Of a DNA stretch of 64,000 bases, positions 2 through 64,000 are shown one piece after another. Origin of the DNA: a virus. The stretch is taken from the IMG/VR virus record IMGVR_UViG_3300042691_042003, positions 1 to 64,000 of that record. One strand, written 5' to 3'. The position numbers and the translations under genes are program-made. The number at the start of each line of letters is the position of its first letter. The stretch's first letter is position 1. A model generated the notes under the pieces. That model saw only the letters and a program-made list of their open reading frames with translations, was not told the origin of the DNA and did no database searches.

Positions 2-9614
<9,613 letters not shown>

Positions 9615-9632
9615 TCATTTGATTTATTTTTT

Positions 9633-9640
9633 CATATAAT
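9633..9640 (+). promoter_or_regulatory. CATATAAT motif, candidate phage promoter
   Basis: CATATAAT preceded by a T-run, 5 bases before the ATG at 9645. The same octamer lies upstream of the genes at 17654, 49846, 58360 and 63462. Its role as a -10-like or late promoter is inferred from position. Confidence 0.4.
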
Positions 9641-9644
9641 TTAT

Positions 9645-10229
9645 ATGGAATCTTTAGAAAATAAAAAATACTACGAATGGACTTCCACTTCTCGAATAGG
9701 GAAAGTGGAATCCTATTTGGCAGAAGACGATACGAATATATATTTTGAAAGTGGTAGATTAGTCCCTAAAGATCAATTTGGTTATCAACTTAATCAAATA
9801 GATGAAGAAGTTTACCTTAGAAAAAAAGAAGTAGAATCATTACCAATTAACCCTCCTTCCCAAAACGATTATTCTGTTAATTGGGATTCTTTATTAGGTA
9901 ATGATCCTCCTATACAAAACAGTCCTACACAGACACCAATAGTAGAACAGAATCCTATAAAAATTATACTTGATAAACAGAAGAAGAAAGAAAAAATTTC
10001 TATTCCTATTAATTTCGAATTTGAAATTCCTAGTAAGAAAGTTTTAGATCTTCTAGATGTAATGTTTGATCGAGATGAAGTCATCGAGGAAATTATTAAG
10101 TCTTCTATTGGAAATATTCAAACCGAATCAGTTATCGAAAAAATATCAGATGAAGTTAAGAAAAAAATTCATTCCTTTTTCGATAGCGATGAAAAAGATG
10201 ACTTAAAAAATGAAATGTCGATTGATTGA
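9645..10229 (+). CDS. Hypothetical protein, first of a five-gene overlapping block
   Basis: 194 residues, not recognised. The N-terminal 60 residues are mixed alpha/beta, followed by a Pro/Asn/Gln-rich linker (about residues 68-105) and a highly charged, Lys/Glu-rich helical C-terminus that ends acidic. No signal peptide or membrane segment. It follows the fibre gene after a 30-base gap that holds a CATATAAT motif, and its end overlaps the next gene by 20 bases, so the block 9645-11989 is probably co-transcribed. Position between fibre and baseplate genes suggests a virion, chaperone or assembly role, but nothing in the sequence proves it. Confidence 0.8.
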   Translation: MESLENKKYYEWTSTSRIGKVESYLAEDDTNIYFESGRLVPKDQFGYQLNQIDEEVYLRKKEVESLPINPPSQNDYSVNWDSLLGNDPPIQNSPTQTPIVEQNPIKIILDKQKKKEKISIPINFEFEIPSKKVLDLLDVMFDRDEVIEEIIKSSIGNIQTESVIEKISDEVKKKIHSFFDSDEKDDLKNEMSID

Positions 10230-10419: not shown

Positions 10420-10744
10420 TTCATCAGCAAGAAGACAAAGAAGACTTTATGAAAAATATCTAAAGAAAACTTCTTTGCAACAATACAAAGAATGGAAGAA
10501 AGATTCCGTAAAAAGAGGAGAAGAATATCATAAGCAGCATACGGAATCTACTATGAAAGATATAGAATCACAATTTGAAAATCTTCAAACTAGAGTAATT
10601 CAATCTATGAAAACTATCGGGAAAAGCGATGAAGAGATTAATGAATACGTTGAAGATTGGTTGACTTCTACTAAGATTTGGGCAGAATCCGATTCTCCTG
10701 AAAGATTTCATAAAGTAAAAAAGAGAAGAGAATCCAATGATTAA
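10409..10744 (+). CDS. Small basic helical protein
   Basis: 111 residues, not recognised. Almost entirely charged and predicted helical: an Arg/Lys-rich N-terminus (ARRQRRLYEKYLKK), then Glu/Gln-rich heptad-like stretches, with Lys/Arg again at the end. Such composition fits a nucleic-acid-binding or scaffold/assembly protein, but this is only a composition argument. It overlaps the previous gene by 11 bases and the next by 8 bases. Confidence 0.75.
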   Translation: MKNNSSARRQRRLYEKYLKKTSLQQYKEWKKDSVKRGEEYHKQHTESTMKDIESQFENLQTRVIQSMKTIGKSDEEINEYVEDWLTSTKIWAESDSPERFHKVKKRRESND

Positions 10745-11081
10745 AATAGAACTATCTTCTGCATCAAACGGTGTAATTAAAAGAGTTCTAGATTCTAATA
10801 CAAAAGAAGATAGTTCTTCTTTTAAAGTTTACGAAATTGATTCTGATCCTAATCTAGACTCTTTTCTAGGAGTAATGGAACTTTTTACCGATATCTCTGC
10901 AGATTTAGGTTTAGATTTAGGATCCGATTTTGATCCCTATCAAATGAAATTTGATATTGATTGGGGTGAAAAATACGTTCCTTCCGAAGAGGAAATAGAA
11001 CAAAAAATTAAATCTCTTAATCTTGAATTGAAGAAGCTAAGAGAATGGAAAAAACTTTTAAATGATGGCGGTAATGTCTAA
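10737..11081 (+). CDS. Small acidic hypothetical protein
   Basis: 114 residues, not recognised. The centre is acidic with the pattern DLGLDLGSDFDPYQ, and the C-terminal 35 residues form a charged helix (EEEIEQKIKSLNLELKKLREW) likely to be a short coiled coil. The start overlaps the preceding stop by 8 bases. Possibly a partner of the basic helical protein encoded just upstream; that is inference from opposite charge and adjacency. Confidence 0.75.
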   Translation: MIKIELSSASNGVIKRVLDSNTKEDSSSFKVYEIDSDPNLDSFLGVMELFTDISADLGLDLGSDFDPYQMKFDIDWGEKYVPSEEEIEQKIKSLNLELKKLREWKKLLNDGGNV

Positions 11082-11469
11082 GAACGTCTTTATTGTTAAT
11101 TGTGATAGAAAAACTTTTGAATCCTCATTTTCAAAGAAGAAGAATTCAGATATTATAAATCAATACGAGATTTTTCAGAAATTAACAAATAACGATTCTT
11201 CTAAGATCCCTCCTTCTGAAGAAATAGTTAATTTTCAGATTATAAAAAAGCTAAATAATTTTAAAATCTGTAGAAAAACTGAATTCGTTTATTTCCTTAA
11301 AGAAAAAGTAGACAGAAAATTTATTAAAAATTTAAAAAATCTTTTTAGCAATTGTAATGTTCCTGTTTATTTTCATTTGTTAATTGATTCTGAAGATAAA
11401 AAGGGTTTTATAAAAGAATTTAATACGGTTCAAGTTTTAGAAGATGATAAAGCAACCTCTACTGGATAA
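11062..11469 (+). CDS. Hypothetical protein
   Basis: 135 residues from the ATG at 11062. An in-frame ATG at 11074 (giving MSKNVF) would shorten it by four residues and cut the overlap with the previous gene from 20 to 8 bases, and is an equally good start. The N-terminus has a buried beta strand (VFIVNCD), then Lys/Asn-rich mixed alpha/beta sequence with two cysteines in the middle. No known motif seen. The end overlaps the next gene by 26 bases. Confidence 0.75.
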   Translation: MMAVMSKNVFIVNCDRKTFESSFSKKKNSDIINQYEIFQKLTNNDSSKIPPSEEIVNFQIIKKLNNFKICRKTEFVYFLKEKVDRKFIKNLKNLFSNCNVPVYFHLLIDSEDKKGFIKEFNTVQVLEDDKATSTG

Positions 11470-11989
11470 AAGAAGTATTTGTCATGCTTTGCTTTATTCT
11501 ACTTCCGATCCAGAAACAATGATCCCAATAAAAGGGATCATTGATGATATTTATTTTGAAGAAGATATTCCTGTTTATTCTATAAGAATTATTAAATTTT
11601 ATGACGGAATTAATTTTCTAAAAACTTCTTTTATAGGAAAATCCTTCCTTACAAATTATAAAGGTAAACCTAAACCTATTGTAATACCTAAAGAAATTAG
11701 GTTAATTGGGGAGTTAGAGAATTGGCTAGGAGAAAAATCTAAATATCGATTTTGTATTGAATCTAATCTCGTTACAAGATCTAAACATGAGATGATGGAT
11801 CTTTTTTATAAGATTCAAGAATATATTATATCTCAAAAATTTAGAAGTTTAAAAAGAATTTTCTTAAGAACTCCTTATGAAGGTCCTTTTAGAATGAATT
11901 CCAATGAAGAATTTAATCGAAGAATAGAAAGAGGATTTGCAGATCTTTTTTCAGAAAATTCATTTAAATCGTTCATAGAAACCATTTGA
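11444..11989 (+). CDS. Hypothetical protein, end of the small-gene block
   Basis: 181 residues, not recognised. Beta-rich N-terminal two thirds (DIPVYSIRIIKFYDG, TNYKGKPKPIVIPKEIRLIGE), then an alpha-helical C-terminus with several Arg/Phe. The ATG at 11444 overlaps the preceding gene by 26 bases. A perfect 9-base inverted repeat (11518-11542) lies near its 5' end. It closes the run of five overlapping small genes; a promoter-like TATATAATA follows directly at its stop codon. Confidence 0.8.
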   Translation: MIKQPLLDKRSICHALLYSTSDPETMIPIKGIIDDIYFEEDIPVYSIRIIKFYDGINFLKTSFIGKSFLTNYKGKPKPIVIPKEIRLIGELENWLGEKSKYRFCIESNLVTRSKHEMMDLFYKIQEYIISQKFRSLKRIFLRTPYEGPFRMNSNEEFNRRIERGFADLFSENSFKSFIETI

Positions 11990-11998
11990 TATATAATA
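11990..11998 (+). promoter_or_regulatory. TATATAATA, candidate phage promoter
   Basis: TATATAATAAAATAAT starts right at the stop of the small-gene block and 23 bases before the ATG at 12013, where the tail/baseplate block begins. It resembles the T4 late promoter box (TATAAATA) in composition and distance; the role is inferred. Confidence 0.4.
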
Positions 11999-12012
11999 AA
12001 ATAATCTAAAAG

Positions 12013-13620
12013 ATGGCTGAAATCAATTATTATAAGTACGACGATTTAGATTTTTCAGGTCCAGCTCCAATAGAAGTTAAAGAGGAAAAAGGAAAAGAGA
12101 TATACAAAGGGATTGATAGGCAAGGAAAACCTTCAATTTTTAATAGATATTCTATTTTCTTTTATAACGGACAGCAATCGGATGCAACAATGCCAGAAGA
12201 TTTCTATGATTCTCCAGATAGAATAGGAGATGCGGCTTTGAAAAAAGTTAGAAATTATCCTTCGGCTCAAAATATTATAGAATGGAGCAAAAGCGGTAAA
12301 GCTAATGCTATAGATTATGCTTGGGAAGATTTTCTTTGGTGTAAAAATTATGGAAAAATTCCAAATAATTACATGGTTACCTTAAGAAGATTTACGGTTC
12401 CTCCTGAAGATGACCTTTCTCATACTGCAAAAAATACTAACCCTGATGTAGCTAGACTAATTACTTGGGTAGACGGAGAAACAAATAAATGGGAAAATGT
12501 TGGTCTAAAATGGTCTCATAATTTAAATTTTAAAGAACTAACTGCAGATCTACAAACTAAGGAATCTCAACCAGGATATGGTAATGAATCAGGAGCTTTT
12601 GAAGGATCTCCATTAGGAGGTATGCTTAAAACTTTCTCTTCTCTTTCGGATTTTGGTGCTTCTAAAGCTGCTGCATCAAATAATCCTCAATCTAACTCTT
12701 TTGATCCTTATCAAAATAGTAATGTAGTATTTGGTCCTATCGATAGAGTTATGAAAATGCAAGTGAGGGAAAAAGGACTAGATTTCTCTCAAGACATAAC
12801 TTTGGTTTTTGAATTCGAGCTTAGATCTATTGATGGAATTAATCCTAAAGTTGCCATGCTAGATTTACTTTCTAATGTTATGATTTGTACTATGAATAGA
12901 GGATCTTGGTGGGGAGGAGATGTTAGATATTATGGAGGAAACCCTAGACAATTAAAACCGATAGGAGATCCAAGTAAATTAGCAAGCGGGGATGTTGAAG
13001 GATATTGGAATTCTTTCGTTAAAGGATTTCAAGGTAGGTTAGATGCATTATCAGGAGGAAAGGGAATATTTAGTTGGGAAGGAGCTAAAAATGCTTTAAA
13101 GAATGTTGCCGGTAATTTTATGTCTCAACTTGCCGGAGGTGCTCTAGATAAAATGGGAAGGCCCGGAATTCAAGCGGTAAATGCTCTACTTTCAGGAGAA
13201 TCTACAGGAGAGTGGCATATAACTGTAGGAAATCCTGCTAATCCTATTATTTCTATAGGAAATTTAATTCTTTCTAAAACTGAAGTAGATTTAAACGGTC
13301 CTTTGGGATTTGATGATTTTCCAACCAAAGTGAAAGTAACTTGTACTCTTAAACCTGCTCGTCCTAGAGATCGTACAGAAATAATGGCAATGTTTTCAAG
13401 GAATGGAAGAACTTATCTCACTGCAGCTCCTCAATCTTCTAAATATGCGGGAAATCGACCAAGAGGAGGACAAAACGGAGGAAAAACACCACCAGGAAAT
13501 AATGCAGATACTTTAAAACAAGCTAATCTAGAAACTAAATTTCCTAAAGAATTACTTGCTTTAAGATTTCCAAATCATAAAGGAGATTTATTAGATAATA
13601 CAGCAAAACATATATTTTAA
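12013..13620 (+). CDS. Tail tube/baseplate hub-associated virion protein
   Basis: 535 residues. Conserved-looking features: a beta-rich central region ending VFEFELRSIDGINPK, a Gly/Ala-rich middle, and a C-terminal domain with GEWHITVGNPANPI, GNLILSKTEVDLNG, FPTKVKVTCTLKPARPRDR. That last stretch looks like the tube-like beta-barrel of tail-tube initiators (T4 gp48/gp54 class), which join hub and tube. It sits directly before the LysM-type gp53-like gene and the hub gene, the same order as tube, LysM protein and hub in contractile injection systems. The last 60 residues are Pro/Gly/Asn-rich. Structural role is fairly safe; the exact T4 counterpart is inferred. Confidence 0.6.
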   Translation: MAEINYYKYDDLDFSGPAPIEVKEEKGKEIYKGIDRQGKPSIFNRYSIFFYNGQQSDATMPEDFYDSPDRIGDAALKKVRNYPSAQNIIEWSKSGKANAIDYAWEDFLWCKNYGKIPNNYMVTLRRFTVPPEDDLSHTAKNTNPDVARLITWVDGETNKWENVGLKWSHNLNFKELTADLQTKESQPGYGNESGAFEGSPLGGMLKTFSSLSDFGASKAAASNNPQSNSFDPYQNSNVVFGPIDRVMKMQVREKGLDFSQDITLVFEFELRSIDGINPKVAMLDLLSNVMICTMNRGSWWGGDVRYYGGNPRQLKPIGDPSKLASGDVEGYWNSFVKGFQGRLDALSGGKGIFSWEGAKNALKNVAGNFMSQLAGGALDKMGRPGIQAVNALLSGESTGEWHITVGNPANPIISIGNLILSKTEVDLNGPLGFDDFPTKVKVTCTLKPARPRDRTEIMAMFSRNGRTYLTAAPQSSKYAGNRPRGGQNGGKTPPGNNADTLKQANLETKFPKELLALRFPNHKGDLLDNTAKHIF

Positions 13621-14175: not shown

Positions 14176-15705
14176 ATGAGTAATTTTGAAAGAAGTATAG
14201 TTTCTATTATAGATCCTACTATTAAAACTGATCCAATAGCACAGGCTGATACTGAATCAAAAGAAGCTAGATCTGAAGGTACTGAAGCTATAGGAGAAGG
14301 GTCGAATACTAAAAATTCTTCTAGATGGGGTGCTTTTTTACCTCTTATTTTTATAAATACAAATAGATTTGATCAAGATCAAATCAGTTTAATGGTTGTT
14401 GAATTTGATGATAAAATTCCTACAATATCGGTTATATTAAAAGATCCAAACGGTAAATTTACGTTAGATGCACCTTTAGATGGGGATGTTATTTCTCTTT
14501 ATATTAGACCACCTGATGCGGCAAATCAAAAACCTATTAGAATAGATTTTGACATAACCGATATTTCAGGTAATCCTCCTTCTCAAACTTTTTCGGTTAA
14601 TGGTATTATGAAAATACCCGGATTCTTTGCTGAAGTTTGTAAAGATTTCCCTAAAGGAAATTCATTCGATCATCTACAAGATGTTTGTGAAGAAGTAGGA
14701 TTAGGTTTTGCTTCAAATGAAACTGCTACCGATGATTCAATGCCTAGAATTTGTGCATTTGAACCTTATCAATCTTTTGTTGATACAACAGTAATGCATA
14801 CATATAAAGATGATGATTCATTTTTTACTTGGTATATAGATCCTTTTTATTATCTTTGTTTAGTTAATATTAATAAACAATTTGACTTAGAAGATAAATC
14901 TGAAGAAATAAACATTAATTCTATCACTCCTTTTTCTGGAGGACAAAACGATGACGAGGCTGATGATACTTCTAAAGGTAATTTAGTTCTTACTAATCAA
15001 AGCGATAGAAATGGAACGAACATTTATATAGATCATTGGGCTGTTGATAATAAATCTGCTACAGTTTGGATAAAAAATGGTTATAAAAGATATTCACAAT
15101 ATTTAGAGTTAAATGAAGAAGGAGGAACAGAATATGTTAGTACTTTTGCGGATCCTTTGACTACTAAAGGTGCCGAAAGTGATGCAATTCTTCCTAAAGG
15201 GAGAAAGGGGGATAATTTTTACGAAAAGCAAATAAAATATAAATGGTTAGGAAAACAATCTATAGGTAATGTTCATGATAATTATATTTTTTCTAATCTT
15301 CTCAATTTTCAAAATCTTCAAGAAATAGAAAAATTAAGTCTTAATATAGATTTAGCTGGAATGAATTTTTATATTTACCGATATATGAGAATTCCAGTTA
15401 GTATATATAATGATGGTAGTAGAGGAACCGATAAATTACAGAGATTAAAAGATCGAGATAAAGCTTTAGGAGAAGATAATGATGATAATAATGAAAAAAT
15501 TATTAAGAGGGCATCAGGGGAAAATGAAGTGAATATAAATGATGTAGGAACCGATCCAAGAGATCAAGTACTAAATCAACACATTTCAGGATATTACGTT
15601 GTTAATACTATAAAATACGTTTATTCTCCTCCAGGACCTATTAAAATGAAGCTAAACTTGATTAGGAGAGAATGGCCGATTCCAGCAAAAAATAACGATT
15701 ACTAA
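14176..15705 (+). CDS. Baseplate hub protein, gp27/gpD-like
   Basis: 509 residues. After a polar 50-residue head there is a beta-barrel-like region (residues about 55-130), an insertion resembling hub proteins (KIPGFFAEVCKDFPKGNSFD, then the helix LQDVCEEVGLGFASN), a FFTWYIDPFYYLCLVNI core and a C-terminal region YYVVNTIKYVYSPPG. This layout matches tail hub proteins of contractile machines (T4 gp27, P2 gpD), which form the trimer that holds the spike. The spike gene lies two genes downstream. An acidic, Asp/Asn-rich loop (about residues 430-455) is variable-looking. Last base of the stop is the first base of the next ATG. Confidence 0.65.
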   Translation: MSNFERSIVSIIDPTIKTDPIAQADTESKEARSEGTEAIGEGSNTKNSSRWGAFLPLIFINTNRFDQDQISLMVVEFDDKIPTISVILKDPNGKFTLDAPLDGDVISLYIRPPDAANQKPIRIDFDITDISGNPPSQTFSVNGIMKIPGFFAEVCKDFPKGNSFDHLQDVCEEVGLGFASNETATDDSMPRICAFEPYQSFVDTTVMHTYKDDDSFFTWYIDPFYYLCLVNINKQFDLEDKSEEININSITPFSGGQNDDEADDTSKGNLVLTNQSDRNGTNIYIDHWAVDNKSATVWIKNGYKRYSQYLELNEEGGTEYVSTFADPLTTKGAESDAILPKGRKGDNFYEKQIKYKWLGKQSIGNVHDNYIFSNLLNFQNLQEIEKLSLNIDLAGMNFYIYRYMRIPVSIYNDGSRGTDKLQRLKDRDKALGEDNDDNNEKIIKRASGENEVNINDVGTDPRDQVLNQHISGYYVVNTIKYVYSPPGPIKMKLNLIRREWPIPAKNNDY

Positions 15706-17633
15706 TGGCATCACCTTTAAATAATTATAATTATAAAGATCCAGGTGTTCTAAGATTTAAAAAAACAAATCTTTATTATACTGAAGATCCTTATCTTCTT
15801 TATCAAGATCCTACTTGGCTAGGTTTTAAGCTATTTTTTAATTTCGATCAAGCCGATAGTAAGTTATTTGGATTAACCGAAAGTTATACAAATACTGCAT
15901 ATTCTTATCTTTTAAGGATAGGAGATAAGGCTAGAGCCGGATATATGGAAAAATTTGTAAAACATATCTACGAAATTAATAATAAAACTCCTTGGTTTTT
16001 TCAAACTATAACTGGCTTAAGTGAAGCATGGAAAAGAGGATATCAAGATGAAAATTTTAAACCTCTTCTTCCAAATGATAGAAAAATTGAAATAGGTTGT
16101 TTAGAATCTATCGATTTAAGAATATCTGCTTTAATGGATCTGTACAGAAAGTCTTGTTTTGATTGGTATCATAGAAGAGAAATTGTTCCTTGGAATTTAA
16201 GAAATTTTGATGTACTTATTTATGTTTATGAAATAAGAGAAATAAATAGAACGGGTAAACCTTCCCCTTCGGGTATGTTAGATCTTACAAGATTAGCTGG
16301 AATTCCTGATATTAATCAAAAACAACAATCTGAAAATAAAAGGTTGTTAGGTGAAGATCCTTACGGATCTGATGATAGTAAATCTCCTTTAAAACAATTA
16401 ATTGATAAAGGGAAAAGTATAATTGAAGGGGTTAAAGCTGATCCAATTCAAGGGATTAAATCTGCTTTAAATCCAAATACAGCAGGTAACGAAGCATCAA
16501 ATACACCAAACACAAATATAAATAGATTTTTATTTAAATTTAAGTATTGTGAATTCTTACCTGATGAATCAGGAGCAGTTTTAGAAAAAGTTGCCTCTTT
16601 TTCTGGAGGAGAAGGAGAAGCTGCTCAGCAAAAAATAGTTTTTTCTTATAGAGATGTAGAAGAGATCAATTTATATAATATCTATTCCGAGGATCAATAC
16701 GTTCAAGATAAAATTATACAACTTTTTGATCAGGCAGCTATTGACGATCCTAATTTAGTTTTTGCTAACGAAAATGGTAGTTTTAGGACTAATAATTTAA
16801 AAGAAAGACCTTCTTACGGCTTAGAGAGTGTTTTAAATGAAGCAGGATATGGAGTTCTGACTCCTTTTGCTTCTCTTGCAGGTGATAAATTAGAAAGATT
16901 AATTAGCTCTTATGCAGGAAAACTTCTGATGGGTAATATTTATGGATTCTCTCCTCTTAATGCCGCAGGAGCAGTTTCAGGAGTTCTCAGCGGAGATCCT
17001 ACTCAAGTTTTAGCAGGAGCACAAAATTTAGTAGGACAAATAGCTGGAAGTAAATCAGAAAAAAATAGAACGAATGATGTAGAATCAATAGGACCTATAG
17101 ATAAAGGTTCTTCACAATTTAATAATACGAACGATGTAACTTCAATAGGTGGAAGAAGAGCTGTAGATGGATCTTCTCTATCTAATAATACAAAAGATGT
17201 AGGATCTTTAGGAAATACTTATACTCCTGGTCCATCCATTACAAATAAGACAATTGATGTAGATTCTTTAGGTAGTACTTATGATCCTGGATTATCCCCT
17301 AGTAATAATACGAACGATGTAGATTCTTTAGGGCCCATAGAAAGAGGTCAATCTCCTACTAATAAAACTAATGATGTAGGATCTCTCGGAACTAATGATC
17401 CAGGACAGTCACCTTCTAATGCTACAAAAGATGTTAGTTCTTTAGGTTCTATAGCTAAAGGTGATTCTCCTATTAATAAAACTAATGATGTTGGTTCTCT
17501 TGGAAATAATGATCCGGGACAATCACCTTCTAATGCTACAAAAGATGTTGGTTCTCTTGGAACTAATGATCCAGGTCAATCACCTTCTAATGCTACAAAA
17601 GATGTAGGTTCTCTTGGAAATACATTTGGATAA
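15705..17633 (+). CDS. Virion protein with ten C-terminal 19-residue repeats
   Basis: 642 residues. The first 200 residues are mixed alpha/beta with many aromatics (WLGFKLFFNFDQADSKLFG; FDWYHRREIVPWNLRNFDV); residues 270-450 contain a beta-rich section and a Gly/Ala-rich helical section. From residue 454 to the end there are ten copies of a unit reading N-x-T-x-D-V-x-S-[IL]-G followed by about nine Pro/Gly/Ser-rich residues. No family recognised. It lies between the hub gene and the spike gene, so a hub-associated or tape-linked virion role is inferred; the repeat tail could be a flexible binding array. Start overlaps the previous stop by one base. Confidence 0.8.
   Translation: MASPLNNYNYKDPGVLRFKKTNLYYTEDPYLLYQDPTWLGFKLFFNFDQADSKLFGLTESYTNTAYSYLLRIGDKARAGYMEKFVKHIYEINNKTPWFFQTITGLSEAWKRGYQDENFKPLLPNDRKIEIGCLESIDLRISALMDLYRKSCFDWYHRREIVPWNLRNFDVLIYVYEIREINRTGKPSPSGMLDLTRLAGIPDINQKQQSENKRLLGEDPYGSDDSKSPLKQLIDKGKSIIEGVKADPIQGIKSALNPNTAGNEASNTPNTNINRFLFKFKYCEFLPDESGAVLEKVASFSGGEGEAAQQKIVFSYRDVEEINLYNIYSEDQYVQDKIIQLFDQAAIDDPNLVFANENGSFRTNNLKERPSYGLESVLNEAGYGVLTPFASLAGDKLERLISSYAGKLLMGNIYGFSPLNAAGAVSGVLSGDPTQVLAGAQNLVGQIAGSKSEKNRTNDVESIGPIDKGSSQFNNTNDVTSIGGRRAVDGSSLSNNTKDVGSLGNTYTPGPSITNKTIDVDSLGSTYDPGLSPSNNTNDVDSLGPIERGQSPTNKTNDVGSLGTNDPGQSPSNATKDVSSLGSIAKGDSPINKTNDVGSLGNNDPGQSPSNATKDVGSLGTNDPGQSPSNATKDVGSLGNTFG
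17064..17633 (+). repeat. Ten tandem 57-60-base coding repeats
   Basis: Encodes ten N-x-T-x-D-V-x-S-[IL]-G units in frame, down to four residues before the stop codon. The last five units are nearly identical in DNA (gatccaggacaatcaccttc followed by taatgctacaaaagatgt), so the array is probably changing in copy number. Confidence 0.9.
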
Positions 17634-58359: not shown

Positions 58360-58803
58360 ATGAAATTCTTAAAAATAAGAGATGTAAAAACTCCAACTAG
58401 AGGAACTCCTCAATCAGCAGGAATCGATCTTTATATTCCTAACGATTTTCCTGAAACTACAATTCTACCTGGTCTTTCTACTTTAATTCCTTCTGGATTA
58501 AAAGTAAATGTTCCGGAAGGACACGCCTTTATTGCATTTAATAAATCTGGTGTAGCTACTAAGAAAGGACTTCAAGTTGGTGCTTGTGTAATAGATGAAG
58601 ATTATCAAGGAGAAATTCATATTCATCTTACGAATGTAGGAGATGAATCACAAATCATTAATCCAGGTGATAAAATTATTCAATGCGTTCTCCTGCCTGT
58701 TAATTATGAAACAGTTGAATTAGTAGAATCAGAAGAAGAACTTTGGAATGGTGAAATTACTCAAAGAGGAGAAGGAGGATTTGGTTCAACCGATCATAAA
58801 TAA
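58360..58803 (+). CDS. dut: dUTPase (deoxyuridine triphosphatase)
   Basis: 147 residues, usual trimeric dUTPase size. All five motifs are present: I SAGIDLY (19-25), II AFNKSGVA (59-66, with Asn-Lys where most have Arg-Ser), III GACVIDEDYQGEI (74-86), IV PGDKIIQ (102-108), V RGEGGFGST (136-144). Hydrolyses dUTP to dUMP and pyrophosphate, keeping uracil out of DNA and feeding dTMP synthesis. It has its own promoter-like box and stands before the polymerase and ribonucleotide reductase genes. Confidence 0.95.
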   Translation: MKFLKIRDVKTPTRGTPQSAGIDLYIPNDFPETTILPGLSTLIPSGLKVNVPEGHAFIAFNKSGVATKKGLQVGACVIDEDYQGEIHIHLTNVGDESQIINPGDKIIQCVLLPVNYETVELVESEEELWNGEITQRGEGGFGSTDHK

Positions 58804-58805
58804 TT

Positions 58806-59024
58806 ATGGAAAATATGAAATTAAATGTGGATTTGGCAAAAAATTCCACAGCAGTTAAATGTCAAAACGAAGAATGTGAAAGTGATCTTTTTAGAGAAGT
58901 AGCTTATCTTCGTAAAATTTCAAAATTATTTACAGGAGCACCTAACGATACTTATGTTCCTATTCCTGTGTTCCAATGTTCGGTTTGCGGGCATATAAAT
59001 AAAGAATTTATCCCAAAAATTTAA
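58806..59024 (+). CDS. Small zinc-ribbon protein
   Basis: 72 residues with two cysteine pairs: CQNEEC (19-24) and CSVC (58-61), the spacing of a small zinc ribbon (C-x4-C ... C-x2-C). Between them are an alpha-helical and a beta section with GAPNDTYVPIPVFQ. T4-type phages often encode small zinc-ribbon proteins near replication genes; role unknown. One-base overlap with the DNA polymerase gene, so the two are translated together. Confidence 0.75.
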   Translation: MENMKLNVDLAKNSTAVKCQNEECESDLFREVAYLRKISKLFTGAPNDTYVPIPVFQCSVCGHINKEFIPKI

Positions 59025-60409
59025 TGATACTTGACGTAGAAGTTAACGATAACGATTTAGTTATTTCCTACTTCGATAAAGAAGGGAAGTCTAAAATCAA
59101 AAGATTTGACATACCCAGTCCTACTAATTGGACTATCTGTTCAGAACATGATCCTAAAAAAGATCCTAATTTTAAGAATTGGGATGGTAAAAGTGTAAAG
59201 AAAATTCAAGAAAAAAGATTTAATAAATGGTCGATTTATGAATTTATTCATACTTTACCAAAAGAAGATCGAGATGAATTATCTGCACTTAATTTTCCCA
59301 AAGTTCAATCGATAGATATCGAAACTGAAATTATCGATTCATTTCCAGTTCCTGAAGTTGCTCGTGAAAGAATTACAACTATTGCAATTGCAACAGAATC
59401 TAATTCTACTATCGTTTTAGGATGGAAACCAATCGATAAAAAACAAGAAAAAGAAATTTTTGATAAACATCAAGAATATCTAAAAGGATTTGGTGATTGG
59501 TCATTCAAATATATTTGTTTTGAAGACGAATATAATATGATGTATACATTCATCAATAAATTCCTACCTAATTTTTCTCTTGTCATCGGTTGGAATTTCA
59601 TGGGTTTTGACTGGAAATACATCTTTAATCGTTGTAAAAGATTAGGAATTGATGTTAGAATGGCATCTCCTTCTCATAAACTTCAAGGAAACGATAATAT
59701 TCCTGTTCATGTAGGAATGGTCGATTATCTAGATATTTATCGTCGATGGGATAGAACTGTTGCAATTAAAGAAAGTAATTCTCTAGATTTCGTTTCTAAT
59801 GCAGTCTTAGGTGTAACAAAATTAAAATATAATGGAACACTTAAAGAATTGTATGACCAAGACTATGATAAATATATTTTATATAACGCAATCGATGCTT
59901 CGCTTGTATGTTTAATACATAAGAAATTAAAAACTTTAAATTCAGTCTTATCTGTGTCTTCTTTATGTAATCTTTCAATCTACAAAGCTTCATCAGCGGT
60001 TAATCTGACTGAAGCTCTTCTCTGGAAAGGTTATTACGAAAGAAATCTTGTTATTGCAGACAGAAAGGTAGAAACTCCTCGAGGTGCATATGAAGGTGCC
60101 TATGTTAAAGAACCTGAGCCAGGTATGTTCCGAGCTGTAACTTGCTTCGATTATGCCTCTCTATATCCTTCAATTATGCGACAGTTTAATGTTTCTCCTG
60201 AATCTTTTATTGTAAAAACTCAAGATTCTAAAAAACTAGATAAACATAAAGAAGATCCAAATTATATAGTTTCGGTTAATGGTGCTATTTATGATAATAA
60301 AGAAGTATCCGTCTTAAAGGAAATTCTTACGAATTTATATTCAGAACGTAAAAGAAATAAGAACAGACACCTAGAGATCGAAAGAAAACTAGCAAAAATA
60401 AAAAAATAA
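59024..60409 (+). CDS. gp43: DNA polymerase family B, N-terminal half (split gp43)
   Basis: 461 residues; T4 gp43 has 898. Exonuclease motifs: Exo I SIDIETE (Asp98, Glu100), Exo II NFMGFDWKYIFNR (Asp196), Exo III YNAIDASLV (Asp291). Polymerase motif A is present, FDYASLYPSI (Asp376). The protein stops at SERKRNKNRHLEIERKLAKI plus two lysines, the start of the fingers helices. Motif B (K-x3-N-S-x-Y-G) and motif C (Y-G-D-T-D-S) are missing, and the next gene (nrdB) starts 4 bases later, so the second half must be encoded elsewhere. Aeromonas phages with a fingers-split gp43A/gp43B are a known precedent. The half present would give proofreading and half of the palm. Confidence 0.9.
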   Translation: MILDVEVNDNDLVISYFDKEGKSKIKRFDIPSPTNWTICSEHDPKKDPNFKNWDGKSVKKIQEKRFNKWSIYEFIHTLPKEDRDELSALNFPKVQSIDIETEIIDSFPVPEVARERITTIAIATESNSTIVLGWKPIDKKQEKEIFDKHQEYLKGFGDWSFKYICFEDEYNMMYTFINKFLPNFSLVIGWNFMGFDWKYIFNRCKRLGIDVRMASPSHKLQGNDNIPVHVGMVDYLDIYRRWDRTVAIKESNSLDFVSNAVLGVTKLKYNGTLKELYDQDYDKYILYNAIDASLVCLIHKKLKTLNSVLSVSSLCNLSIYKASSAVNLTEALLWKGYYERNLVIADRKVETPRGAYEGAYVKEPEPGMFRAVTCFDYASLYPSIMRQFNVSPESFIVKTQDSKKLDKHKEDPNYIVSVNGAIYDNKEVSVLKEILTNLYSERKRNKNRHLEIERKLAKIKK

Positions 60410-60412
60410 TTT

Positions 60413-61414
60413 ATGGCTAAAATTTTCGAAGAGAGGATAGAGTATAAACCATTTGAATATCCTGTTTATTATACTGAAGGATGGTTGAAACAAATGCAAG
60501 CTTTTTGGTTACATACTGAAATTCCAATGCAAGGAGATGTTAAGGATTGGAAAGAACATCTTAATGCTTCCGAAAAAAATCTTGTAGGTAATATCCTTCT
60601 TGGATTTGCACAAACCGAATGTGCAGTATCTGATTATTGGACAGGAATGGTTACAAAATGGTTTCCGAAACACGAAATTAAGCAAATGGCCATGGCTTTT
60701 GGTTCTCAGGAAACTATTCATGCTACAGCATATTCTTATCTAAACGAAACACTTGGATTAGAAGATTTCAAAGCTTTTATGCATGAGCCTTCTATTGCCG
60801 AAAAATTCGAATATCTGATTTCTACTGAAGCAGATTATACAGCTGAAGATCTAATTAATTCTGCTAGAGCTAGAAAAGATGTTGCAAAATCTATTGCTAT
60901 ATTTTCTGCTTTCGCTGAAGGAGTTTCTCTTTATTCTTCTTTTGCTGTTCTTTATTCTTTTCAAATGAGGAATCTTCTTAAAGGAATAGGTCAACAAATG
61001 AAATGGTCTGTAAGAGACGAATCTCTCCATTCAAAAATGGGTTGTCAACTTTTTCGTCACATGTGTGAAGAATATCCTAATTTGAAAGATGAAGTTCAAT
61101 CTGAAGTTGAATATGCGGCCGAACTTATGGTTGATATGGAAGAGAAATTTATTGATAAAATGTTCGAAATGGGAGATTTAGAAAATCTAAAAGCTAAAGA
61201 TCTTAAGAATTTTATCCGTAGAAGAGCTAATGAAAAGCTAGTAGAATTAGGTTATCAATCTAAATTTAATTTTGATTATAAATCAGCTGAAGAACTTTCA
61301 TGGTTCGATCATTTAACTGGTGGAGTAACTCATACAGATTTTTTTGCTATGAGAAGTACGGATTATTCAAAAGCCGGTGAAAATGAAAGCTGGGACGAGG
61401 ATGATATCTTCTAA
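60413..61414 (+). CDS. nrdB: Ribonucleotide reductase class I, small subunit
   Basis: 333 residues, normal for the family. Ferritin-like di-iron site: Glu69, Glu100 and His103 (QETIHATAY), Glu169 (AFAEGVSLY), Glu203 and His206 (RDESLHSKMG). The radical tyrosine is Tyr107, at the right spacing after Glu100-x2-His103. The C-terminus is acidic (SWDEDDIF), as needed to bind the large subunit. With NrdA it makes dNTPs from NDPs. Precedes nrdA by about 150 bases, with a hairpin and a tiny gene between. Confidence 0.95.
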   Translation: MAKIFEERIEYKPFEYPVYYTEGWLKQMQAFWLHTEIPMQGDVKDWKEHLNASEKNLVGNILLGFAQTECAVSDYWTGMVTKWFPKHEIKQMAMAFGSQETIHATAYSYLNETLGLEDFKAFMHEPSIAEKFEYLISTEADYTAEDLINSARARKDVAKSIAIFSAFAEGVSLYSSFAVLYSFQMRNLLKGIGQQMKWSVRDESLHSKMGCQLFRHMCEEYPNLKDEVQSEVEYAAELMVDMEEKFIDKMFEMGDLENLKAKDLKNFIRRRANEKLVELGYQSKFNFDYKSAEELSWFDHLTGGVTHTDFFAMRSTDYSKAGENESWDEDDIF

Positions 61415-61460: not shown

Positions 61461-61577
61461 ATGAAAGGAATTTTAAGAGTTATAGGTATTTTAGTTTTGG
61501 CTTTTACATTTAGTGCTTGTACTTGTACACCTAAATCATGCCCTACTTACGAAAAAATAAAAATAAATGGAAAATAA
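61461..61577 (+). CDS. Tiny lipoprotein between nrdB and nrdA
   Basis: 38 residues. MKGILRVIGILVLAFTFSAC is a classical lipoprotein signal: basic start, hydrophobic helix, lipobox FSAC with Cys20 as the lipid site; then a short Cys-containing mature part of 18 residues (TCTPKSCPTYEK). Its last 11 bases overlap the nrdA start in another frame. Lipoproteins this small in phages are often outer spanins, superinfection-exclusion or lysis factors; here it sits inside the nucleotide operon. An o-spanin partner for the membrane protein at 43715 is an inference. Confidence 0.6.
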   Translation: MKGILRVIGILVLAFTFSACTCTPKSCPTYEKIKINGK

Positions 61578-63351
61578 AAAACATTACGGAGAACAATTTG
61601 GTTGGGAATTAGGAGTAGATTATCCGATCTGGGGTAACACTGAAATTTATGTTAAAACTATTAGCAAAGGTTATCTTCTTCCAGGAGAAACACCAAAAGA
61701 TGCTTATTGGAGAGTTTCTTCTACTGTTGCAAAGCGTTTAAGTAAACCTGAATTAGCTTCTAAATTTTTCGATTATATTTGGAAAGGATGGCTTAATTTA
61801 GCTACTCCAGTTCTTTCAAATACAGGAACCGAAAGAGGTCTCCCTATTTCATGTTTTGGTATTGATGTTGCTGATTCTATTAATGATATCGGTAAGAAAA
61901 ATTTAGAAATGATGCTTCTTGCTAAGCATGGTGGAGGTGTAGGAATTGGAATAAATCAGATCAGATCTGCAGGATCTCCTATTAAAGGAAATGGTACATC
62001 AGATGGAGTAGTTCCTTTTTGTAAAATTTACGATTCAACAATTCTTGCAACTAGTCAAGGTTCAGTAAGAAGAGGTGCCGCTTCTGTTAATATTGATATC
62101 GAACATGGAGATTTTTGGGAATGGTTAGAAATTCGTGAACCAAAAGGTGATGTTAATAGACAATCTTTAAATCTTCATCAATGTGTTGTAGTTTCTGATT
62201 CATTTATGCAAAAAGTTGAAGCAGGTGATAAAGAAGCTAGAGCAAGATGGACAGCCGTTCTTCGTAAACGTAGAACAACTGGAGAACCTTATATTATGTT
62301 TAAAGGAAATGTAAATAGAAATAATCCAGAACCTTATAAGAATTCAGGATTAAAAGTTTACATGACTAATATTTGTTCAGAAATTACTCTACATACTGAC
62401 GAATCTCATTCTTTTGTTTGTTGTCTTTCTTCTATTAATCTAGCTAAGTATGATGAATGGAAAGACACAGATCTTATCTATACTTCTACTTGGTTTTTAG
62501 ATGGTGTAATGGAAGAATTTATTCAGAAAGCAAAATATATGAGTGGTTTTGGTAATTCTGTTAGATCTGCTGAAAAAGGAAGAGCTTTAGGTTTAGGAGT
62601 TCTAGGTTGGCATACTTATCTTCAAGAAAATGGAATTCCTTTTGAAGGACTTCTTGCTCAATATGAAACTCGTAAAATCTTTTCACAAATTAAGCTAGAA
62701 TGTGAAAGGGCAAGTAGAGATATGGCAAGAGAATATGGTGAACCTCTTTGGTGTGTAGGAACCGGAATGAGAAATACACATACTCGAGCAATTGCACCTA
62801 CAGTCTCTAATTCAAAGCTTTCAGGTAATATTTCACCTGGAATCGAACCTTGGGCAGCTAATGTATTTACTGAACAAACTGCAAAAGGAACTTTTATCCG
62901 TAAAAATCCTACTTTGAAGAAATATCTTAAGAAAATGAAAATGGATAATGAAACTGTTTGGAATCAAATTCTTTCCGATGGAGGTTCTGTTCAAGGATTA
63001 GATTTTCTAGATAAATGGTTCTTTGTAGACGGTAAGCTAATTGAAATTATTGATGATTCTGTTAATTTCGATGATAAAATTCCTTTTAAAGAAGTTTTCA
63101 AAACATTCAAAGAAATTAATCAATTAGACCTTGTAAAACAAGCAGGATTAAGGCAACAATATGTAGATCAATCAGTTTCACTTAATTTAGCCTTTCCTAC
63201 AGAAGCTTCTCCTAAATTTATAAACCAAGTTCATATGGAAGCATATAAACAAGGAATTAAAACACTTTATTACATGAGAACTGAATCTGTTCTTCGAGGC
63301 GATATTGCTCAAAAAGCTCTCGATCCGGATTGTCTTTCATGTGATGGCTAA
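61567..63351 (+). CDS. nrdA: Ribonucleotide reductase class I, large subunit
   Basis: 594 residues, shorter than E. coli NrdA (761) because the N-terminal ATP-cone is missing, so dATP inhibition is probably absent. Active-site residues: Cys96 (PISCFG), Asn268-x-Cys270-x-Glu272 (NICSEIT), Cys285/286 (FVCCLSS), the Tyr568-Tyr569 radical pair (LYYMRTE) and the C-terminal redox pair Cys589-x2-Cys592. Reduces NDPs to dNDPs with NrdB. Loss of the cone is common in phage and small class I enzymes. Confidence 0.95.
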   Translation: MENKKHYGEQFGWELGVDYPIWGNTEIYVKTISKGYLLPGETPKDAYWRVSSTVAKRLSKPELASKFFDYIWKGWLNLATPVLSNTGTERGLPISCFGIDVADSINDIGKKNLEMMLLAKHGGGVGIGINQIRSAGSPIKGNGTSDGVVPFCKIYDSTILATSQGSVRRGAASVNIDIEHGDFWEWLEIREPKGDVNRQSLNLHQCVVVSDSFMQKVEAGDKEARARWTAVLRKRRTTGEPYIMFKGNVNRNNPEPYKNSGLKVYMTNICSEITLHTDESHSFVCCLSSINLAKYDEWKDTDLIYTSTWFLDGVMEEFIQKAKYMSGFGNSVRSAEKGRALGLGVLGWHTYLQENGIPFEGLLAQYETRKIFSQIKLECERASRDMAREYGEPLWCVGTGMRNTHTRAIAPTVSNSKLSGNISPGIEPWAANVFTEQTAKGTFIRKNPTLKKYLKKMKMDNETVWNQILSDGGSVQGLDFLDKWFFVDGKLIEIIDDSVNFDDKIPFKEVFKTFKEINQLDLVKQAGLRQQYVDQSVSLNLAFPTEASPKFINQVHMEAYKQGIKTLYYMRTESVLRGDIAQKALDPDCLSCDG

Positions 63352-63461: not shown

Positions 63462-63866
63462 ATGACTACAAACGAAAAATATGCAATGAATCGTACCATT
63501 GGTATATTCATGGGAGGTGAAATTATCGGTACAGAATCTTATGATAGAGGAGGATCCGAACTTGTTATTGAAAGATGGAAAGTTCCTCAAGGAATTGCTG
63601 CTTATGATGATAGTGCAAAAATAGGATATTTTCATTATGATCTTCATTGGGATCGTTTAATGTCGGTTATAGAAAAAATTGAAGAAATGGGACATTCAGT
63701 TATAATTTCTAGAACCACATGTAAAATTGTAGAAGATTTTAAAATCTATCCTATAATTGATAAGACTTCCGATGAGAAAATAGATGCTGTTTATTTAGCA
63801 ATCTGTGAATTTGTTAAGAAACATAACCATGAGCAATTTTTAGAAGATTTAAAAAATGAAAAATAG
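63462..63866 (+). CDS. Small hypothetical protein, phage ABA-sandwich-like
   Basis: 134 residues. The second half has FHYDLHWDRLMSVIEKIEEM followed by GHSVII, then KIDAVYLAICEFVKKHN: a strand, two helices and an alternating sequence that resemble the small 'phage ABA sandwich' proteins found in many Bacteroidota phages. Function unknown. First gene after the strong terminator. It overlaps the next start by 11 bases. Confidence 0.65.
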   Translation: MTTNEKYAMNRTIGIFMGGEIIGTESYDRGGSELVIERWKVPQGIAAYDDSAKIGYFHYDLHWDRLMSVIEKIEEMGHSVIISRTTCKIVEDFKIYPIIDKTSDEKIDAVYLAICEFVKKHNHEQFLEDLKNEK

Positions 63867-64000
63867 AATAACTCTTTCTGATATAATTCTAATGGATCGA
63901 AAAATCCGTAGAGATATTGAAATAGAAGCAGGAATGAATCGATCTTCCCTTCGAATTCATCGTTCTAAGAAAACTTATACAAGGAAAAACAAACATAAAT
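63856..64000 (+). CDS. Small basic protein, 3' end outside window
   Basis: The ATG at 63856 lies inside the end of the previous gene and opens a frame that runs to the window edge (48 codons). The visible part is MKNRITLSDIILMDRKIRRD followed by an Arg/Lys/His-rich end with RSKKTYTRKNKHK. Strongly basic; RNA/DNA binding is possible. The stop codon is outside, so length and family are unknown. Confidence 0.5.
   Translation, partial: MKNRITLSDIILMDRKIRRDIEIEAGMNRSSLRIHRSKKTYTRKNKHK

Follow-up and report, generated by a model that had tools for sequence, protein, structure and literature searches.

A T4-type phage DNA polymerase split at the fingers tip into gp43A and gp43B, with a ribonucleotide reductase operon between the halves

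The replicative polymerase of this phage is very probably a two-subunit T4-type family B DNA polymerase (PolB), a working heterodimer of the products of two genes, gp43A and gp43B. The window (the whole stretch of 64,000 nucleotides analysed) contains only the first of these, as had originally been predicted: the ORF at 59024-60409 stops in the fingers-tip loop. The second is located further along the source record, a 246,081-base linear contig that may be incomplete. As the enzyme is encoded by two separate genes, it must be assembled from two parts in the cell. The genes of the region are as follows.

58360..58803, + strand: dUTPase, the conserved upstream neighbour of gp43A
58806..59024, + strand: 72-aa Zn-ribbon-like ORF, its stop overlapping the gp43A start (TAATG)
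59024..60409, + strand: gp43A, 461 aa with a TAA stop; N-terminal domain, 3'-5' exonuclease, palm motif A and first fingers helix
60323..60406, + strand: C-terminal fingers helix of gp43A, residues ~434-461 (from the alignment and an AF2 helix at 430-460)
60413..61414, + strand: nrdB, class I ribonucleotide reductase (RNR) small subunit, first gene of an apparently exchangeable RNR cassette
61567..63351, + strand: nrdA, class I RNR large subunit (NCBIfam NF006577, 650.6 bits, cut-off 620)
63462..63866, + strand: 134-aa ORF between the halves, no family match
Genome 63856-64496 (63856..64000 in the window), + strand: small ORFs of 53, 82 and 85 aa, continuing past the window
Genome 64493-65239 (10494-11240 of locus L003), outside the window: conserved 248-aa ORF directly upstream of gp43B, with a start overlap (ATGA)
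Genome 65236-66432, + strand, outside the window: gp43B, 398 aa; DNA_pol_B profile positions 153-367, phrog_1918

On sequence grounds, the 461-aa ORF encodes the N-terminal half of a T4-type PolB. It matches DNA_pol_B_exo1 (PF03104) with 49.8 bits and DNA_pol_B (PF00136) with 67.5 bits, the Pfam cut-off being 23 bits for both, and the PF00136 match covers profile positions 16-137 of 453 only. Among its PHROG matches is phrog_2062, a family of N-terminal halves. The catalytic residues present are D98/E100 (exoI), D196 (exoII), D291 (exoIII) and D376 (motif A). RB69 gp43 residues 186-495 align with gp43A, which ends near RB69 residue 501.

A PF00136 search of the complete record returned two places only, at 60011-60367 and 65347-66069. 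The second falls outside the window, in gp43B. Hence the original observation that motifs B and C do not occur in the window holds, and is explained by gp43B starting 1,236 bases beyond where the window ends; the gene is on the same strand, 4,826 bases downstream of the gp43A stop. The second half had been expected to lie elsewhere, as a family B fragment to be sought in the rest of the genome, and gp43B corresponds to this description: it matches PF00136 with 49.5 bits (profile 153-367), aligns to RB69 528-808, and contains motif B (KLAINSIYGAFAN), motif C (KYTDTDS), the KKKY region and a thumb with a hydrophobic 'LF' tail. Together the two proteins amount to 859 aa (461+398), close to the 898 of T4, and include all of the ExoI-III, motif A, B and C, and KKxY catalytic residues. 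The PHROGs hold one family for each half, phrog_2062 (A) and phrog_1918 (B).

The position of the break was determined from phmmer alignments, in which gp43A residue 455 corresponds to RB69 gp43 495 and gp43B residue 10 to RB69 528. The break is therefore in the fingers-tip loop, placed between RB69 ~501 and ~519. A fingers-tip alignment shows the same loop to be broken in the window phage, Aeromonas phage 25 and Acinetobacter PhT2, and intact in T4. RB69 R482 and K486, which we take from the established RB69 structures to be triphosphate-binding residues, align with R442 and K446 in the C-terminal fingers helix of gp43A, while RB69 K560 and N564 align with gp43B K43 and N47; the dNTP site would thus be common to the two chains. 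Whereas sequence, split position, conservation, co-evolution and gene order are observed, physical association, activity and a shared active site in solution are inferred. Twelve of the 15 catalytic positions inspected show no variation among the 31 aligned polymerases, whether split or fused (exoI-III, the motif A Asp, the fingers Arg, the motif B Lys/Asn, the motif C Asp pair and KK), with L224, a full-length polymerase, left out of the fingers alignment and later counts and retained in one tree. Variation is confined to motif-A Y381 and motif-B Y50, with a single Y to F change each, and to K446 (4/31).

The terminal helix of gp43A stops at the fingers-tip break, and its last 25 residues have a net charge of +7. 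The original prediction had described the split end as very basic, in line with a fingers-tip position. The end is indeed basic, but this is not specific to the split, given that the fused T4 gp43 has the same charge pattern. We considered, and did not adopt, a split-specific electrostatic clasp between the A tail (+7) and the B head (-5). A-tail and B-head charges correlate with r=-0.73 (n=45), and with r=-0.33 once LR756501/502/504 and LR745206 are removed. In these huge phages (loci L040/L113, L045/L114, L046/L115 and L047/L116) the charges are reversed, with a negative A tail and a positive B head, representing a single change in one lineage. Because the correlation leans on that change, and the signs are those of fused T4, the clasp is suggestive only.

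In the proposed arrangement, gp43A would account for everything up to the first fingers helix, including the N-terminal domain, an entire 3'-5' exonuclease and the palm half that contains motif A. The remainder would come from gp43B: motif B on the second fingers helix, the palm half containing motif C, the KKxY region, and a thumb with the 'LF' tail. By homology, the chains are expected to join without splicing, with both chains contributing to the palm sheet at their interface and the pair of fingers helices packed side by side without the tip loop that links them in T4. The shared dNTP site would consist of the motif-A Asp, R442 and K446 from gp43A, and K43, N47 and both motif-C Asp residues from gp43B. 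Neither half alone would be expected to support polymerisation, although gp43A might retain its function as an exonuclease.

Purifying selection acts on both halves, which also evolve in step. For moderately close relatives (L024 vs L026), dN/dS is 0.04-0.07 in both halves, and for L008 vs L009 it is about 0.02; the synonymous sites of the window phage's own pairs are near saturation. The A and B distance matrices correlate with r=0.96 over 45 taxa, a value not reached in any of 2000 permutations, and mean divergence is 0.524 for A vs 0.528 for B. AF2 models were obtained for gp43A alone (pLDDT 85) and for a gp43B homologue from L016 alone (86% identical; pLDDT 72), and RB69 gp43 is the best PDB match of both. 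The outer domains of each half are confidently predicted, in gp43A the N-terminal/exonuclease part, together with a single C-terminal fingers helix at 430-460. Palm segments that would depend on the other half have pLDDT <50, namely motif A and its flanks in gp43A (348-363, 368-381) and residues 39-71 and 176-219 of the gp43B homologue; these are one-chain predictions from shallow 25-row alignments, and the low palm confidence could partly reflect alignment depth. The parts missing from each half seem to be those provided by its partner, which fits an obligate heterodimer.

Three other explanations for the split were weighed against this two-subunit enzyme. A split intein could join the halves after translation, as with DnaE or 'fractured' phage genes. 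Relatives do use split inteins in this gene: gp43B of LR756500 and of Lak phages is cut at motif C with intein blocks (TIGR01445, TIGR01443), and a split-intein PolB has been reported for phage MIJ3 (PMC6892783). However, no intein model matches gp43A or gp43B of the window phage at E<0.001, while the LR756500 gp43B pieces do match. The gp43A protein ends ~6 residues past the last RB69-alignable position, too close for an ordinary IntN to fit, and an HN-S/C/T junction is absent before the polymerase sequence of gp43B. Close relatives retain equally short ends. The test for split-intein sequences at both ends, suggested originally, is hence negative for the window phage, some relatives having one inside gp43B at motif C, and we regard intein joining as extremely improbable here.

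The confident AF2 fold of gp43A alone as N-terminal domain plus exonuclease would also suit a relic or stand-alone exonuclease, with replication left to a host or other polymerase. Against this, purifying selection conserves motif A, R442 and gp43B, all of which co-evolve, and the phage also retains uvsX, a gp41-like helicase, and gp47- and gp46-like ORFs. The possibility of a complete polymerase elsewhere, raised at the outset, finds no support in the record, as no PolA, PolIII or complete PolB was found in this 246-kb linear contig, which may be incomplete. The relic explanation is thus very unlikely. An assembly or contig-joining artefact, likewise anticipated, might be considered since the IMG/VR record containing the window is possibly a fragment. 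The gene order from dut to gp41 nevertheless repeats in many independent contigs of 67-86% identity, dozens of independent assemblies have the gp43A stop, RNR genes and gp43B in this arrangement, and the cultured phages PAU and MA9V-1 have the same split, reducing the probability of an artefact to almost nil. The two-subunit polymerase remains the reading we favour. A bolder version of it, in which PolB is a dissociable enzyme (gp43A alone acting as exonuclease, and polymerising once gp43B is added), the split is long-lived and selected, and the slot between the genes is dedicated to swaps of dNTP-supply cassettes (several class I RNR types, class II RNR) with both polymerase halves left in place, is speculative and in our view rather unlikely.

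Alignment-based scans of IMG/VR yielded 66 usable loci, corresponding to 43 distinct A+B pairs. All IMG/VR pairs are on the same strand with A first, separated by gaps of 995-6,942 bp. The close relatives (67-86% identity) have the order dUTPase, 72-aa ORF, gp43A, RNR and small ORFs, followed by the 248-aa ORF, gp43B, uvsX, a 108-aa ORF and gp41. By PF00136 search, cultured PAU (gap 2.4 kb) and MA9V-1 (gap 2.2 kb) have the split PolB only. The halves are on opposite strands and about 102 kb apart in LR745206, 133 kb in LR756502, 281 kb in LR756504, 222 kb in Lak-A2 and 228 kb in Lak-C1, and are near opposite ends of the 735-kb linear record of LR756501; those of Lak-B3 are still about 8 kb apart on one strand.

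PolB is found in three genes in LR756500 and Lak phages, with gp43B itself in two pieces and a split intein at motif C; the junction in the gp43B pieces is YIDTD|S..., with IntC ending VHN/AHN|S. The coordinates of the pieces are given below.

L037 (LR756500), 11417-12184 and 8787-9725: gp43B pieces
L043 (Lak-A2), 5476-6285 and 6644-7615: gp43B pieces
L048 (Lak-B3), 14918-15727 and 11954-12925: gp43B pieces

A fused PolB ORF of 1255 aa at L035 (7307-11071) contains an intein-like insert of ~400 aa in motif B (N|SLYG). L228, L230, L240 and L261 contain further distant PolB genes that also look divided close to the fingers, the gaps being 0.2-1.2 kb; these may be additional independent breaks.

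The interval between the halves of the window phage is occupied by nrdB, nrdA, four small ORFs and the 248-aa ORF, with just 3 bases separating the gp43A stop from the nrdB ATG (60413). The four small ORFs have no Pfam or PHROG match. A homing element had been suggested as one possible cause of the separation. No homing endonuclease or group I intron was recognised between the halves, the intervening ORFs being RNR genes or without family match, and 19 kb of sequence giving no Rfam match. The 248-aa ORF was considered as a sliding clamp, given its fitting position and size. It gave no convincing Pfam, PHROG or PDB profile match, and an hhalign comparison to T4 gp45 returned a probability of 0.3 percent; the clamp reading was dropped and the ORF left unnamed. 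The gp45 Pfam models had no match anywhere in the genome. In one sub-group, an FkbM-type methyltransferase gene (PF05050, 53 bits) is located between the 248-aa ORF and gp43B (L008 15518-16216, L009 15356-16054).

A comparison of loci points to repeated replacement of the RNR cassette between the halves. L008 and L009 share 94.4% DNA identity as far as the stop codon of gp43A and 92.7% again beginning near the 82-aa ORF, and have different nrdB-nrdA pairs, of two class I types, in the slot (L008 11388-14014, L009 11391-14220). The slot of L030 (6752-8833) contains a class II B12-dependent triphosphate reductase-like gene, with an RTPR match of 261.5 bits that is under the NCBIfam cut-off, and that of L194 is without RNR, an RNR gene being located upstream of gp43A (137-1648). 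A 36-taxon tree requires a minimum of 9 switches of RNR type, with types assigned crudely, from identity to the NrdA of the window. The open PMC papers searched gave no account of an exchange slot of this kind.

The split of the window lineage arose, as judged from polymerase trees, independently of that in Aeromonas and Acinetobacter phages, at the same loop. In a 29-polymerase tree, the window group forms one 100/100 branch that includes three fused members (MaF61, L214 and L235), while phage 25, PhT2 and T4 form a separate 100/100 branch. An AU test rejected a single clade of all splits (p=1.2e-69). The comparison to Aeromonas gp43A/gp43B made in the original prediction is thus apt for the kind of split, at the fingers tip, but the two are parallel events rather than the same one. 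A single split for the whole window group is moderately disfavoured (AU p=0.006), because the fused L214, L235 and MaF61 nest inside it; the branches are long, and the group was defined once the tree had been inspected. Repeated splitting or re-fusion inside the window group is possible.

The A halves within the group differ at about half their positions, suggesting a long life as two separately encoded subunits. With tens of sequence pairs available, this would be a naturally heterodimeric PolB in which the active site and fingers closing do without the tip loop, and the fingers tip appears to have broken in parallel in separate phage lineages. Half-length 'DNA polymerase' matches in jumbo phages should be read as gp43A/gp43B pairs rather than truncations, and marker-gene trees built from one PolB ORF use half of the enzyme only. 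PMC papers yielded no match for gp43A together with gp43B, and none describing the split of the window clade was found. The depth of the clade, the 100-280 kb opposite-strand separation in huge phages and the replaced RNR cassette are apparently undescribed so far.

The split into gp43A and gp43B is itself of a known kind, found in Aeromonas and Acinetobacter T4-like phages. The 43A and 43B proteins of phage 25, the one case in which assembly of such halves into an active enzyme has been demonstrated, co-purify with polymerase activity (PMC2988022, citing Petrov et al. 2010), and gene 43 has been reported as split in Acinetobacter phage ZZ1 (PMC4177764). In Aeromonas phage 25/44RR, Acinetobacter ZZ1 and PhT2 the same loop is broken, giving two intact halves, one with the exonuclease and motif A and the other with motifs B and C. 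Phage 25 has a homing endonuclease between the halves and an intron in 43B, and PhT2 has small ORFs over 2.1 kb, whereas in the window phage the interval is taken up by an entire RNR operon plus further genes, none of them a recognised endonuclease. Sphingomonas phage PAU (gp105/gp110) and Chryseobacterium phage MA9V-1 (ORF135/ORF138) belong to the same broader clade and have the same break, with other genes between the halves, including a dUTPase in PAU; the MA9V-1 paper lists both polymerase ORFs as individual entries and never uses the term 'split' (PMC10537231). Rhodothermus phage RM378 is T4-related and also has its PolB activities in separate genes, but there the break separates the exonuclease domain from the polymerase domain (ORFs at ~22 kb and ~80 kb) and is not in the fingers. 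Jumbo phage MIJ3 has PolB in two genes with a putative split intein and an HNH endonuclease (PMC6892783), in contrast to the intein-free halves of the window phage. The Lak megaphages, LR756500-LR756504 and LR745206 have the same N-half and C-half families and the same break. In Lak and LR756500 a split intein additionally divides gp43B, and several of these huge phages have the halves on opposite strands at distances of 100-280 kb.
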